NCBI RefSeq assembly: GCF_900103005.1
Contig: NZ_FMWL01000004.1
Span: 124,001-188,000, forward strand
DNA length: 64,000 nt
Reading direction: 5' to 3'
DNA from: Acidaminobacter hydrogenoformans DSM 2784
GTDB lineage: Bacteria; Bacillota; Clostridia; Peptostreptococcales; Acidaminobacteraceae
This document shows positions 44,401 to 49,028 of this stretch, in pieces (within the stretch, counting starts at the first letter, position 1; each line of letters opens with the position of its first letter). The notes beneath the pieces were generated by a model. The model worked only from the letters and a program-made list of their open reading frames with translations. It ran no database searches and was not told the DNA's origin. Both the position numbers and the translations under genes were made by a program.

Positions 44401-46638
44401 GTGAGAAAGAAGTTTGCTGAAGATGAGTTGCTCGGTAGATTCAGATTAAAACACAATCATGGGCTTCGAATAGATCCCAAACCGACACCTCCGGAGGAAG
44501 TTGAGGAGGCGGCAAAAGCCCTTGAACCTGTTATGGCTTCTCTTGAGACTAAAGAGTCAACTGGATCAAACCTGAGTATTGACTGGGATACCAACGACTT
44601 TGAGGCGCCTGAGTCTTTGCCTTCTGAGGAGGCCCTGAAGGCGATTCTGTTTGGGGAACCCGTAGAGGAAATGTCAATAGAAGAGCATGTTTTTTACAAG
44701 AGTCAGCGGCATCAAAAGATGCTGGAGCTTCTGGCCAAAGTAGAAGCCTTGACCCCAAGGACCGTTGAATCAAAGCAGGATTCCGCGATTCCAAACCTTG
44801 AAGAAGCGAATAACAGGGATACGGTTAATAGGTTGGCACAAAATTCAGAGTCCGCAGCTTCGGCACTTTCAAAGTTAGACATGACGCATTTTTCTGAGGT
44901 GGGATACGACGAAGCCCCTGAGGGGGAATACGACGAAGTCCCTGAGGAGGGATACGACGAAGTCCCTGAGGAGGGATACGACGAAGTCCCTGAGGAGGGA
45001 TACGACGAAGTCCCTGAGGAGGGATACGACGAAGTCCATGAGGCGGAATACGACGAAGTCCCTGAGGAGGGAACGACCATGCGGTCTGAGTCTGAAGCGA
45101 AACTAAAGGAATATGGCGCACAGGCTAAGGCCCGCGACGAGAATGAGCAGGCTTCTGCTGATGATCCCATCAAGCTGAACGTTGACCAGGAGGATTTTCA
45201 GGAACGTTTAATCCGAATTTTAAATGAAAATTATGGAGATATGGGGGAAGTCAAGCCTCAGAATTTGAAGTCGAGATTAATTGAGATTTTGAATGAAGAA
45301 TATGCTGAGGGATACGACGAAGATCCTGAGGGGGGATACGACGAAACTCCTGAGGGGGAATACGACGAGAATCTCGAGGAGGAATACGACGAGAGCCTCG
45401 AGGAGGAATACGACGAAGGTATCGAGGCGGGCTCCGGCAAAACGTCTGATCAGGAATTGGTCGAAGTTTCAGAGCCTGATCACGTAGAAGTTCCTGAGAC
45501 GGGAGATGTCGAAAAACCTGAAGCGGAATCTATCACAGAGGCACATCCAACACAAATGGAACTGCCAGAGGTTGATGATGTTAAAGCACCAGAGGAAAGT
45601 GTCGATATCCTGAAAGATGAAGCTGGCTTTTTGTCTCAGGATTATGATCCCTATAAAGCTGAGCTGACTGAGGAATCCGCTGATTTCGCTGAAGCGCCGT
45701 TACCTGAACCACCAAAAGCCTCGAAACCAAAAATTGATTTTCGCGAGTACCAGTATGTGACTTCGTTCCACGAAGTGCCAATTGAGGAAGAAGATGAGGC
45801 AGAGCCTTTTGAAGCCATTTTTCATGAAATAACGGATGAAACAGCGGATGACGTCAAAGATGAAATCTCAGATGAAGTTGTAGATGATGTCACAGACGAA
45901 ATAGAGGATGAAGTATCGGAAGAAATTGAGGATCAAGTTTCAGATGTAATTGAAGATGAAGTTTCAATCGCAGTCCGAGATGAGGATGAAGACAAAGTTA
46001 TAGATGAAATCGTGGTAAAATCAGCTGACAAAGTAATGGAAGAAACCTTGAGTGAAGGCCCGGATAAGTCAAAAGATGAGACGGACTTGAGGGATGAAGC
46101 TGAATTGTTGAGACCTGAGGTCGAACCATTTCAGAAGGCAGAGTCCCATAAGCATGAGCATCCATGGTTGAAAGAACTTAAGAGAGAAAGCGTGGAGCAC
46201 CGCTGGACCAAGAAAGCTGAGCATGAAGAGATGGGTGGGAAAGAAGACCACGGGCAAAATAAAGTCCCTCTTTCACAGGAAGAGCGTTATGCAGGCAACC
46301 ATGTCAGGACGGCTGCCGGAAACGCTGAACCTGTCAGGCCCTCTCGTTCAGAAACAGTGAGTGCTGCCGTTCAAAACAGCGACCGCGGTATGTCCATGGA
46401 GGAATGGTCTTTTGTCTTTGATACGTTAAAAGAACAGATCGATTATCTGAAACAGCAGCTTGAAATCAAAGACCATCAGCTTCAAAATAAAGATGAGCTG
46501 ATCAGAAATTTTCAAATTTTATTAAAGAACGAGCAGGACAAATTCCTTAAGCTGGAGAATAAGATGGAGGATGTTGTCCTTCAGGTTGAGGAACGTGCCA
46601 CAAAAAAAGGCTTTTTTAGCCGTTTCAGGAAGAGGTAA
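44401..46638 (+). CDS. Large acidic repeat protein with C-terminal coiled coil
   Basis: 745 residues, GTG start, very rich in Glu, Asp and Val. Two blocks of an 8-residue unit: about seven copies of GYDEVPEE (44902-45069) and five variants such as GYDETPEG (45309-45431), then a DEV/IEDE-rich region (about 475-550). An N-terminal segment (MRKKFAEDELLGRFRLK) is basic. The last 90 residues form a coiled coil (EEWSFVFDTLKEQIDYLKQQ) ending in a basic, aromatic FFSRFRKR. No signal peptide. Not a family I recognise; a scaffold or membrane-tethered linker is possible. Confidence 0.65.
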   Translation: MRKKFAEDELLGRFRLKHNHGLRIDPKPTPPEEVEEAAKALEPVMASLETKESTGSNLSIDWDTNDFEAPESLPSEEALKAILFGEPVEEMSIEEHVFYKSQRHQKMLELLAKVEALTPRTVESKQDSAIPNLEEANNRDTVNRLAQNSESAASALSKLDMTHFSEVGYDEAPEGEYDEVPEEGYDEVPEEGYDEVPEEGYDEVPEEGYDEVHEAEYDEVPEEGTTMRSESEAKLKEYGAQAKARDENEQASADDPIKLNVDQEDFQERLIRILNENYGDMGEVKPQNLKSRLIEILNEEYAEGYDEDPEGGYDETPEGEYDENLEEEYDESLEEEYDEGIEAGSGKTSDQELVEVSEPDHVEVPETGDVEKPEAESITEAHPTQMELPEVDDVKAPEESVDILKDEAGFLSQDYDPYKAELTEESADFAEAPLPEPPKASKPKIDFREYQYVTSFHEVPIEEEDEAEPFEAIFHEITDETADDVKDEISDEVVDDVTDEIEDEVSEEIEDQVSDVIEDEVSIAVRDEDEDKVIDEIVVKSADKVMEETLSEGPDKSKDETDLRDEAELLRPEVEPFQKAESHKHEHPWLKELKRESVEHRWTKKAEHEEMGGKEDHGQNKVPLSQEERYAGNHVRTAAGNAEPVRPSRSETVSAAVQNSDRGMSMEEWSFVFDTLKEQIDYLKQQLEIKDHQLQNKDELIRNFQILLKNEQDKFLKLENKMEDVVLQVEERATKKGFFSRFRKR
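44902..45069 (+). repeat. 24-bp tandem repeat in the acidic protein gene
   Basis: About seven copies of GGATACGACGAAGTCCCTGA plus GGAG, several identical at the DNA level, indicating recent expansion. Encodes GYDEVPEE. Confidence 0.9.
45309..45431 (+). repeat. Second, diverged 24-bp tandem repeat block
   Basis: Five more variable units of the same 24-bp type (GGATACGACGAAGATCCTGA and so on) in the same gene. Confidence 0.85.
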
Positions 46639-46892: not shown

Positions 46893-46921
46893 TTGAACAA
46901 AGAGACAAATCACACTATAAT
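46893..46921 (+). promoter_or_regulatory. Promoter of the ABC exporter leader transcript
   Basis: TTGAAC (46893-46898), 17-base spacer, TATAAT (46916-46921). Transcription should start near 46928, giving a leader of about 285 bases before the first ABC gene. Confidence 0.85.
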
Positions 46922-46940
46922 GAAAATGTAGTCCTTGAGT

Positions 46941-46956
46941 GGCGGACACGTCCGCC
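46941..46956. promoter_or_regulatory. Palindrome in the exporter 5' leader
   Basis: GGCGGACACGTCCGCC, arms of 7 bases, just after the predicted transcription start and 40 bases before the leader peptide. Could be an operator or a 5' stem that stabilises the transcript. Confidence 0.5.
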
Positions 46957-46997
46957 TCACATTGGCGCTGCAAAAATTCACAAAGGAGGTTGCGGTC

Positions 46998-47078
46998 ATG
47001 ATGATGACAAAGATTGCATTTAACGTTTCAGTTATTTCTACAGTTTCATACTTGCAGCCTGTGGTTTCTATTTTGTAG
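46998..47078 (+). CDS. 26-residue regulatory leader peptide
   Basis: ATG (three in a row) placed 7 bases after AAAGGAGGT, the best ribosome site in the region. The peptide begins MMMTKIAFNVSVIS and ends LQPVVSIL, with the stop at 47076. It sits between a strong promoter and two terminators ahead of a BmrCD-type exporter, the position of the BmrB leader in B. subtilis. Codons 21-25 are part of the RNA segment that can pair with the first terminator. I read it as a sensor of slowed translation, not as a functional protein. Confidence 0.8.
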   Translation: MMMTKIAFNVSVISTVSYLQPVVSIL

Positions 47079-47110
47079 ACTTTTAATTTTTCCGTCTATA
47101 GAGCCGCAGG
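47058..47110 (+). promoter_or_regulatory. Antiterminator helix between leader-peptide codons and terminator 1
   Basis: CCTGTGG (47058-47064) pairs with CCGCAGG (47104-47110) with one G-U, and TCTAT (47067-47071) pairs with ATAGA (47098-47102): 12 pairs with a small internal loop. This helix would tie up the left arm of terminator 1 and includes the last codons of the leader peptide. Confidence 0.7.
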
Positions 47111-47132
47111 AAATTCTTCTGCGGCTATTTTT
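47102..47132 (+). terminator. Attenuator terminator 1
   Basis: AGCCGCAG (47102-47109) pairs with CTGCGGCT (47119-47126), followed by ATTTTT. It lies 24 bases after the leader stop, inside the transcription unit. Confidence 0.85.
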
Positions 47133-47156
47133 ACGCCTATAAAAGGTAAAAAATGT

Positions 47157-47187
47157 AAAATAGTGCAGAGGAATCTGCACTATTTTT
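47157..47187 (+). terminator. Attenuator terminator 2
   Basis: AAAATAGTGCAGA (47157-47169) and its exact complement (47174-47186) around GGAA, ending in T5. It lies only 27 bases before the first ABC gene. Its left arm can instead pair with the right arm of terminator 1 (TCTGC and CTATTTT, 47118-47130). Confidence 0.9.
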
Positions 47188-47213
47188 GTTTTGCGAAAGG
47201 AGATAAAGTCTGC

Positions 47214-49028
47214 ATGTCGCGCCAGTTACATTCAAGCAATTTAAGAAAGCTGCTTCAGCATATGAAGGGGAACGTGTTACTCTATATGATCGCTATGGCA
47301 GCGGTTTTATTGACGACTTTATTCGCGCTAACTATTCCACTTATGATTCGTTTTGCGATAGACCAAGTCATTGGTGGTATAGAAGCGGACACCGCCTTCG
47401 CTGGGTGGATGCAGCGCATAAGCGTCAGCACTCTTTTTGGCGTGGCCATTTTGATCCTGGCGGCATCTCTGCTGCGAGCCTTATTCCTTTTTATAAAAGG
47501 GGTTGCAAGCGCTGCGGCGTCAGAAGCCATAGCTAAAAATTTAAAAGACAAGGTCATGCAGCATCTGCATGAAGTAAAATTCGAATTTTTCTCAACGCAT
47601 GATACGGGTGACTTGATTCAAAGGGCGACCTCTGATGTAGAGACCATTCGCAGATTTCTTTCTGTACAAGTCGTGGAGATTGTTTCCATTGTTCTCATGG
47701 TGGGCATTGTATCCGGACTGATGTGGACACTGGATCCAAGGCTCACCGTTATTGCCCTGAGTTTAATCCCACTGGTCATTGCCTTTTCAATCTGGTTTTT
47801 TTTCAGGGTCAAGGAAAGGTTCAAAATTGCGGATGAAGCTGAAGCAAAGGTCACTTCTATGCTTCAGGAAAATCTCAGTGGGATCAAGGTCGTCAAAGCC
47901 CTTGGGAGAGAGCCCTTCGAATACGAAAAATTTTCCGGCCTTAATCTGGACCTGAAAGAAAAGGTGTATAAGTTAATCCTCAATTTCGCTTACTTTTGGT
48001 CCTTGTCTGACTTCGTGTGCCTGCTGCAGATCGCGCTGGTCATGTACTTTGGCGCCAAATGGGCCATTGAAGGGGCGGTCAGCCTGGGCACAGTTGTCGC
48101 CTTTATTACTTATGAAAATATGCTCATTTTTCCAATCCGTCAGCTGGGTAGAGTACTCAGCGAATTTGGGAAGACTATGGTCGCTGTGAAGAGAATTGAT
48201 GAGATTCTGACTGCGGAACGGGATGAAGCATCAGAATTTCAGATGGATGGGTCAGAGACCAAGTTATTGACGCCTGAGATCCAGGGGCGCATTGAATTTC
48301 GAAAGGTACATTTTGCTTACCCCAAGGGAGAAGATATCCTGAAGGGGATTGATTTTGAGGTTGGCGCGGGGGAGACTATCGGCATACTGGGCCCTACGGG
48401 CTCGGGAAAGTCGACTCTGGCATATCTGCTGACCCGGCTCTACGAACCGACAGCAGGGGAAATTCTTCTGGATGGGATTCCAATCCGGCACATTGCCAAA
48501 CAGCACCTGCGCCGCAATATTGGACTCGTGCTCCAGGAAGCTTTTCTCTATGCCAGAACCATTGGTCAAAATATTGCGATCCGGGCAGAAGCCAGTGAGG
48601 CTGAAATTATCAGGGCAGCTGAAATTTCTGCGATTCACCACAGTATCGAGCAGTTCGATCACCGGTATGAAACGGTGGTAGGAGAGAAAGGCGTTTCCTT
48701 ATCCGGCGGACAGAGACAGCGGGTGGCTATTGCCAGGACACTGCTGAAGCCCATGCCCGTCATGGTCTTTGACGATTCTCTCAGCGCAGTGGATACAGAA
48801 ACGGACAGACAGATCCGCCAGGGGCTTATGGCGAATAGCGCAGGTGCCACAGTGCTGCTGATTTCCCACCGGATTACAACACTTATGGAGGCTGACCGTA
48901 TTTTAATCATTGAAAACGGCAGGGTATCTGCCTTTGATACCCATGAGGCGCTCATCCAGCAGGATGGGCTTTACAAGCGGGTCTGGGAGATTCAGAATGC
49001 CGCCTCGGAAGCGGAGGATGAGGTGTAA
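47214..49028 (+). CDS. Heterodimeric ABC exporter subunit, BmrC-like
   Basis: 604 residues from the ATG at 47214 (AAAGGAGA 10 bases upstream); the open frame upstream from 47163 runs through the attenuator. Six membrane helices, then an ABC domain: Walker A GPTGSGKST, signature LSGGQRQR, Walker B VMVFDDSLSAVD. The catalytic Glu after Walker B is Asp, the degenerate site typical of BmrC-type subunits in heterodimeric multidrug exporters. The partner gene follows after 5 bases. Expression is probably controlled by the leader peptide and two attenuators. Confidence 0.92.
   Translation: MSRQLHSSNLRKLLQHMKGNVLLYMIAMAAVLLTTLFALTIPLMIRFAIDQVIGGIEADTAFAGWMQRISVSTLFGVAILILAASLLRALFLFIKGVASAAASEAIAKNLKDKVMQHLHEVKFEFFSTHDTGDLIQRATSDVETIRRFLSVQVVEIVSIVLMVGIVSGLMWTLDPRLTVIALSLIPLVIAFSIWFFFRVKERFKIADEAEAKVTSMLQENLSGIKVVKALGREPFEYEKFSGLNLDLKEKVYKLILNFAYFWSLSDFVCLLQIALVMYFGAKWAIEGAVSLGTVVAFITYENMLIFPIRQLGRVLSEFGKTMVAVKRIDEILTAERDEASEFQMDGSETKLLTPEIQGRIEFRKVHFAYPKGEDILKGIDFEVGAGETIGILGPTGSGKSTLAYLLTRLYEPTAGEILLDGIPIRHIAKQHLRRNIGLVLQEAFLYARTIGQNIAIRAEASEAEIIRAAEISAIHHSIEQFDHRYETVVGEKGVSLSGGQRQRVAIARTLLKPMPVMVFDDSLSAVDTETDRQIRQGLMANSAGATVLLISHRITTLMEADRILIIENGRVSAFDTHEALIQQDGLYKRVWEIQNAASEAEDEV

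Follow-up and report, generated by a model that had tools for sequence, protein, structure and literature searches.

A predicted ribosome-mediated attenuator that couples two tandem terminators before an ABC exporter in Clostridia

The stretch of DNA analysed, referred to here as the window, comprises 64,000 nt from Acidaminobacter hydrogenoformans DSM 2784 (GTDB lineage Bacteria; Bacillota; Clostridia; Peptostreptococcales; Acidaminobacteraceae), and corresponds to positions 124,001 to 188,000 of the forward strand of contig NZ_FMWL01000004.1 in assembly GCF_900103005.1. Two consecutive genes encode the half-transporters of an ABC exporter, and are preceded by a leader with its own promoter (Table 1). 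A short, translated-looking open reading frame (ORF) with a ribosome site lies between the promoter and the first of two Rho-independent terminators, both within the one leader. The initial annotation of this DNA had described the promoter, the strong ribosome site, the 26-codon frame and the two intrinsic terminators, and direct reading and scanning located all of them where it had placed them. The nearest named relative, Acidaminobacter sp. MAG4, in which subunit 1 of the exporter is 82% identical, has a TATAAT box and a TTG-type -35 box at the position equivalent to the window promoter. The exporter ATG at 47214 follows terminator 2 after only 27 nt, and scanning of these 27 nt revealed no promoter-like site, so that exporter mRNA from the leader promoter must cross both terminators. 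The fold of the whole leader was 4.3 sd below that of dinucleotide shuffles. Just upstream of the leader, positions 44401-46638 encode an acidic protein of 745 aa that carries YDEVPEEG-type repeats in tandem and has no NCBIfam match.

Table 1. Positions of leader and exporter features in the window.
Feature	Position	Strand	Details
Sigma-70-type promoter, TTGAAC-17-TATAAT	46893-46921	+	10/12 consensus matches (scan)
Leader ribosome-binding site, AAAGGAGG	46982-46989	+	Direct reading; kept in relatives
Segment 0 (AGGTTGC)	46987-46993	+	Overlaps leader ribosome site; partner is 47054-47060, GCAGCCT; candidate anti-antiterminator
Leader ORF, 26 codons, MMMTKIAFNVSVISTVSYLQPVVSIL	ATG 46998 to TAG 47078	+	Direct reading; orthologue in MAG4
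Segment 1	47054-47071	+	5' half (47054-47060) pairs with segment 0; 3' part (47058-47071) pairs with segment 2
Segment 2	47098-47110	+	Left arm of terminator 1; also partner of segment 1
Intrinsic terminator 1 (2:3)	Hairpin 47102-47126, with T-run to 47132	+	10 bp, 5-nt loop, then ATTTTT
Segment 3	47114-47131	+	Right arm of terminator 1 with part of loop and tail; partner of segment 4
Segment 4	47157-47173	+	Left arm of terminator 2 with loop; partner of segment 3
Intrinsic terminator 2 (4:5)	47157-47186, with tail to 47187	+	13 bp, 100% complementary, then TGTTTT
Segment 5	47174-47186	+	Right arm of terminator 2
ABC exporter half-transporter 1, 604 aa	47214-49028	+	Walker B VMVFDDS: Asp replaces catalytic Glu, degenerate ATP site
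ABC exporter half-transporter 2, 608 aa	49034-50860	+	Canonical FILDEATS; variant signature LSTGQ

Read from the translations, the exporter is a heterodimer of two half-transporters in which one ATP site is degenerate. Among the matches listed for solved structures, ABCB1-type exporters were the closest, followed by the bacterial exporters Sav1866, TmrAB and TM288. Subunit 2 matched BmrD (YheH) with E 2e-90, a modest value well behind those for ABCB1 and TM288, and BmrC was not among the best 60 matches of subunit 1. Judged by these comparisons, the earlier label 'BmrCD-type' is right for the general design only, namely a heterodimeric ABC exporter with one degenerate ATP site.

Besides the two terminators, the initial annotation had proposed a chain of five RNA segments (1 to 5) with alternative pairings. 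Every pairing was found as described. Helix 1:2 (47058-47071 with 47098-47110) had an energy of -17.7 kcal/mol against -10.0 for shuffled sequences (p = 0.010), and helix 3:4, slightly longer than first given (about 47114-47131 with 47157-47173), one of -19.0 against -7.6 kcal/mol (p = 0.002). Helix 1:2 overlaps the leader ORF and is exclusive with terminator 1 (2:3), as befits an antiterminator. The chain 1:2/2:3/3:4/4:5 was thus confirmed, but as a switch it was incomplete, lacking a further conserved helix. This helix, 0:1, was first noticed in the minimum-energy fold, where the leader ribosome site paired with the start of segment 1. It precedes and overlaps the antiterminator, in the position of an anti-antiterminator, and is conserved and covarying among relatives; in the window taken alone it is weak (p = 0.108). 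Segments 0, 2 and 4 are alike in their pairing partners, as are segments 1, 3 and 5, so that neighbours can pair in two registers.

Relatives were gathered by whole-genome searches in the family, the order and the class, taking in orthologues at 40-50% identity. In the host's own family, the leader ORF and both terminators were found in 19 of the 22 exporter-bearing genomes; among the other three, one was not assessable (L035), one had a single terminator (L019) and one had none of this kind (L020). Within Clostridia, at least seven families have this layout in front of orthologous exporters, among them f2, f5 and f11 of the order and f31, f57 and f59 of the class, and families f50 and f32 have the leader ORF with a single terminator. 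Distant exporter orthologues in families f3 and f10 (L049-L057) mostly lacked the element, and no leader ORF followed by tandem terminators was found before paralogous exporters (about 30-36% identity, L023-L031). When 394 genomes of the order were scanned with a strict nucleotide pattern for the group-B form, only three copies came back, all at this operon, indicating that in that exact form the element has not spread to other genes. Searches against Rfam gave no family above the gathering threshold, and relaxed thresholds produced sub-threshold noise only. The 'independent, two-stage version' of the initial annotation is supported as regards the two-terminator attenuator, but it is no one-off: the attenuator is spread across the class Clostridia.

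A lack of conservation in relatives had been named in the initial annotation as one outcome that would refute the chain; the pairings were kept, with compensatory changes. In MAG4, the leader encodes the peptide MMITINDYNVIALNSTSYRQPVVIIL and has both terminators, and segments 1 and 2 are altered in sequence yet still pair. Helix 0:1 changes in step among relatives, as GGUUGC/GCAGCC, GGUUAUA/UAUAACC, GGUUACG/CGUAACC and GGUCGUG/CACGACC. Covariation was scored in an alignment of 27 sequences, with the arms registered by hand and rows of one genus being related. Here 0:1 scored 0.590, against 0.322 when shuffled and at most 0.18 with slid partners; its positions were 95.8% paired, and five of its seven pairs were altered on both sides. 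For 2:3 the score was 0.368 against 0.263 shuffled, and the core of terminator 1 was 100% paired, with every core pair kept in 27/27 aligned relatives. Covariation of 1:2 was modest (0.175 against 0.139 shuffled), with 84.1% pairing in the antiterminator core. The fifth position of this core (alignment pair 32:52; 47062 with 47106 in the window) was a non-pair in 14/27 leaders, and this recurrent mismatch may keep the antiterminator weaker than the terminator.

Sequences within a genus are related, and counts of them are not independent events; a swap at the level of groups is the safer test. Duplex energies were thus compared between each leader's own segments and segments exchanged across lineages, using one representative per group and 2000 derangements. 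Own segments paired better than swapped ones for 0:1 (-17.75 against -11.24 kcal/mol), 1:2 (-14.74 against -10.84 kcal/mol) and 3:4 (-16.35 against -9.79 kcal/mol), and in each case 0/2000 derangements reached the own value. Two control pairings showed no specificity: for 1:4, own segments gave -8.1 against -9.2 for swapped ones, with 1637/2000 derangements as good, and for 0:2 the count was 355/2000. The negative result for 1:4 indicates that the swap effect is no by-product of composition or of the likeness between the terminators. Direct disarming of terminator 2 by segment 1 was rejected on the same result. Individual exceptions were seen, as 1:2 was weak in the f2 group (p about 0.1) and a convincing 3:4 was not found in L017. 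As a background, 39 adjacent pairs of terminator-like hairpins were collected from both strands of 0.86 Mb of loci; nearly all strong cross-pairings among them belonged to this leader family, the best unrelated pair reaching -12.3. Together, lineage swaps and covariation support what was first proposed from the window, a chain of mutually exclusive pairings and an attenuator with two terminators.

The position of the chain relative to the ORF was also conserved. In 20/21 leaders measured, 17-27 nt lie between the core of segment 1 and the end of the leader ORF, the exception being L011 with 41 nt; at the usual distance, a ribosome at the stop codon covers segment 1. The leaders range from 24 to 60 codons across lineages, the reading frame through segment 1 differs, and the peptides differ completely among relatives while the RNA pairings persist. 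Since leader length and frame vary in this way, selection seems, from the sequences compared, to concern positions in the RNA more than the peptide.

States of the leader RNA were followed by constrained folding. In RNA cut off ahead of the right arm of terminator 1, placing a ribosome at the start site gave 1:2 in nearly all leaders, and placing one at the stop codon led to its loss in most. When segment 2 was sequestered, 3:4 formed before terminator 2 was complete in 27/28 leaders. At full length in the window, sequestration of segment 2 gave 12.4 pairs for 3:4 against 5.1 for 4:5, and with terminator 1 free, terminator 2 formed normally (12.6 pairs). Across the leaders at full length, 3:4 exceeded 4:5 in only 10/28 with segment 2 blocked. 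Under equilibrium folding, terminator 1 usually prevailed over the antiterminator, even when a ribosome occupied the start site. This implies that the ON state must be kinetically trapped, which is usual for attenuators. For free RNA of the window, the helix that the model gave ahead of the emergence of terminator 1 was 1:2, not 0:1.

Taken as a whole, we consider it about 80% probable that the leader is a ribosome-mediated transcription attenuator, in which a chain of six alternating complementary segments relays the decision made at terminator 1 to terminator 2. In the OFF state, 0:1, 2:3 and 4:5 would be paired, both terminators would form and the exporter would not be transcribed. Two situations would lead there: in an untranslated leader, segment 1 would be sequestered by 0:1, and with a ribosome at the leader stop codon, it would be covered directly. 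Helix 0:1 thus explains how an untranslated leader can be OFF. A ribosome that has started the leader and is slow or stalled before segment 1, by itself or followed by another waiting at the start site, would occupy segment 0 and leave segment 1 free. Early stalling or queueing must be assumed here, since a single ribosome halted midway through the ORF would leave segment 0 uncovered. Segment 1 would then capture segment 2 as the antiterminator and terminator 1 would fail; segment 3, thus freed, would capture segment 4, and terminator 2 would fail too. By this arrangement, terminator 2 would catch polymerases escaping from an intact terminator 1, and the one decision taken there would also disable terminator 2. 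We observed the elements and their complementarity, found them conserved and covarying in relatives, and obtained these states from the folding models. Ribosome stalling, as well as termination and read-through in vivo, we infer. Ribosome-targeting antibiotics are the probable natural signal, and would be expelled or counteracted by the exporter.

It could be argued that attenuation takes place at terminator 1 only, with terminator 2 as an unlinked backup whose likeness to terminator 1 is left from a tandem duplication. Such an origin would suit some relatives in family f57 (L075, L077, L079, L080), where terminator 2 nearly copies terminator 1, and families f50 and f32 do manage with one terminator. 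However, 3:4 is kept in lineages with a completely different sequence and pairing register of terminator 2, and in group C the wobble that terminator 1's own left arm makes with its right arm is absent when that right arm pairs with the left arm of terminator 2. A mere copy further predicts pairing of segment 1 with segment 4, a specificity absent from the swap control. An unlinked backup is, on this evidence, unlikely. An aptamer for a ligand, or a protein bound to the leader without any control by ribosomes, would also be compatible with conserved alternative structures before a transporter, and a 2010 survey proposed such control for other attenuators before ABC transporters (PMC2965389). 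Against this, the leaders have neither an Rfam match nor a conserved unpaired core resembling an aptamer; moreover, one of the pairing segments is the leader ribosome site, and the distance of segment 1 from the ORF end is nearly constant at 17-27 nt. We give a riboswitch or protein-bound leader very little weight.

Sensing of amino-acid shortage, in the manner of trp- or ilv-type attenuators, would require no other architecture than the one described, and three Met codons open the window leader, in which Val and Ser are abundant. No run of a single residue is conserved, however; the peptides diverge completely while the RNA pairings persist, and the genes controlled are those of an exporter, not of a biosynthetic operon. 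These considerations make amino-acid sensing decidedly improbable. The chance is slighter still that the frame is a free-standing microprotein, or a small RNA with its own terminator, and that the exporter has a separate promoter. The good promoter and ribosome site, and an ORF that ends before terminator 1, are as such a unit would have them, but the 27 nt before the exporter start contain no promoter-like site, and it is the pairings that are conserved, not the peptide or the frame through segment 1. A six-segment attenuator governed by ribosome position remains the preferred reading.

Leaders of related design are known. The leader bmrB of bmrCD in Bacillus subtilis has a leader ORF with a predicted terminator, antiterminator and anti-antiterminator, requires translation, and is induced by lincomycin, erythromycin and chloramphenicol (PMC4191407). 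The window leader resembles it in these three structures and in a leader ORF before a heterodimeric ABC exporter; bmrB differs in having one terminator, inside the leader ORF, with no relay to a second one, and control by AbrB is a feature on the bmrB side. In vmlR of B. subtilis, the leader ORF lies within the anti-antiterminator, drug stalling prevents that helix so that the antiterminator forms, the sequence of the peptide matters little, and freed residues of the read-through RNA disrupt a second, downstream hairpin (PMC9226507). An anti-antiterminator at the leader ORF, a peptide of little weight and an effect on a second downstream hairpin would be common to both leaders. The vmlR leader ORF, however, has three codons, its downstream hairpin hides a ribosome site and is no second terminator, and the gene controlled is for an ABC-F factor, not an exporter.

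As cited in PMC4335068, ermK of Bacillus has two adjacent Rho-independent terminators. As in ermK, a leader peptide is followed by two such terminators in one leader RNA. In ermK, the downstream gene is for a 23S rRNA methylase and the leader peptide has 14 residues with a macrolide arrest motif, whereas the window has no such methylase downstream but the ABC exporter. Kwak 1991 is reportedly the source for the ermK and ermD attenuators of Bacillus. Alternating segments and a leader peptide are further shared with the leader of ermC (ErmCL), where the peptide is drug-stalled; ermC controls translation, not transcription. The 2010 survey listed other attenuators before ABC transporters, one of them before a multidrug exporter of two lactobacilli (PMC2965389).

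No description of this attenuator was found in the literature searched, where absence is not proof of absence. What appears to be new, with ermK compared by its cited description only, is how the features are combined: the two terminators are connected by a relay helix kept through different sequences, the leader ribosome site serves as the first segment, and the whole is attached to one exporter across Clostridia. There is a somewhat better than even chance that these leaders form a widespread and uncatalogued family in Clostridia whose alternating complementary repeats, starting from the leader ribosome site, pass a single ribosome-sensed decision on to two terminators in turn and give a tight OFF together with a full ON. 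If so, inducible exporter control by ribosome position would be a native regulatory layer of Clostridia, beyond Bacillus and the mobile erm and mef genes, and the relay would offer a simple way of linking terminators that stand in series. The conserved linkage to the exporter points to an uncharacterised pump, probably handling translation inhibitors.

Two features of the leader peptides were seen in addition. The window leader contains ..VISTVSYLQP.., which resembles the ErmCL arrest peptide, ..VISTVHYQP.., in sharing VISTV.Y.QP-like residues. Of this stretch, the MAG4 leader keeps only ..NSTSYRQP.., and other families are without the likeness, which may be due to chance or driven by the RNA. 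A specific arrest peptide of the ErmCL type (VISTV), absent from the genus relative and from other families, was not adopted. Most group-B leaders (L006, L008, L011, L013, L015, L016, L018) carry in mid-leader the word ATCAGTGCG(T/C)C or close variants, which encodes Ile/Thr-Ser-Ala-Ser/Pro and occurs in two copies in L011. This word is a possible arrest or pause motif.
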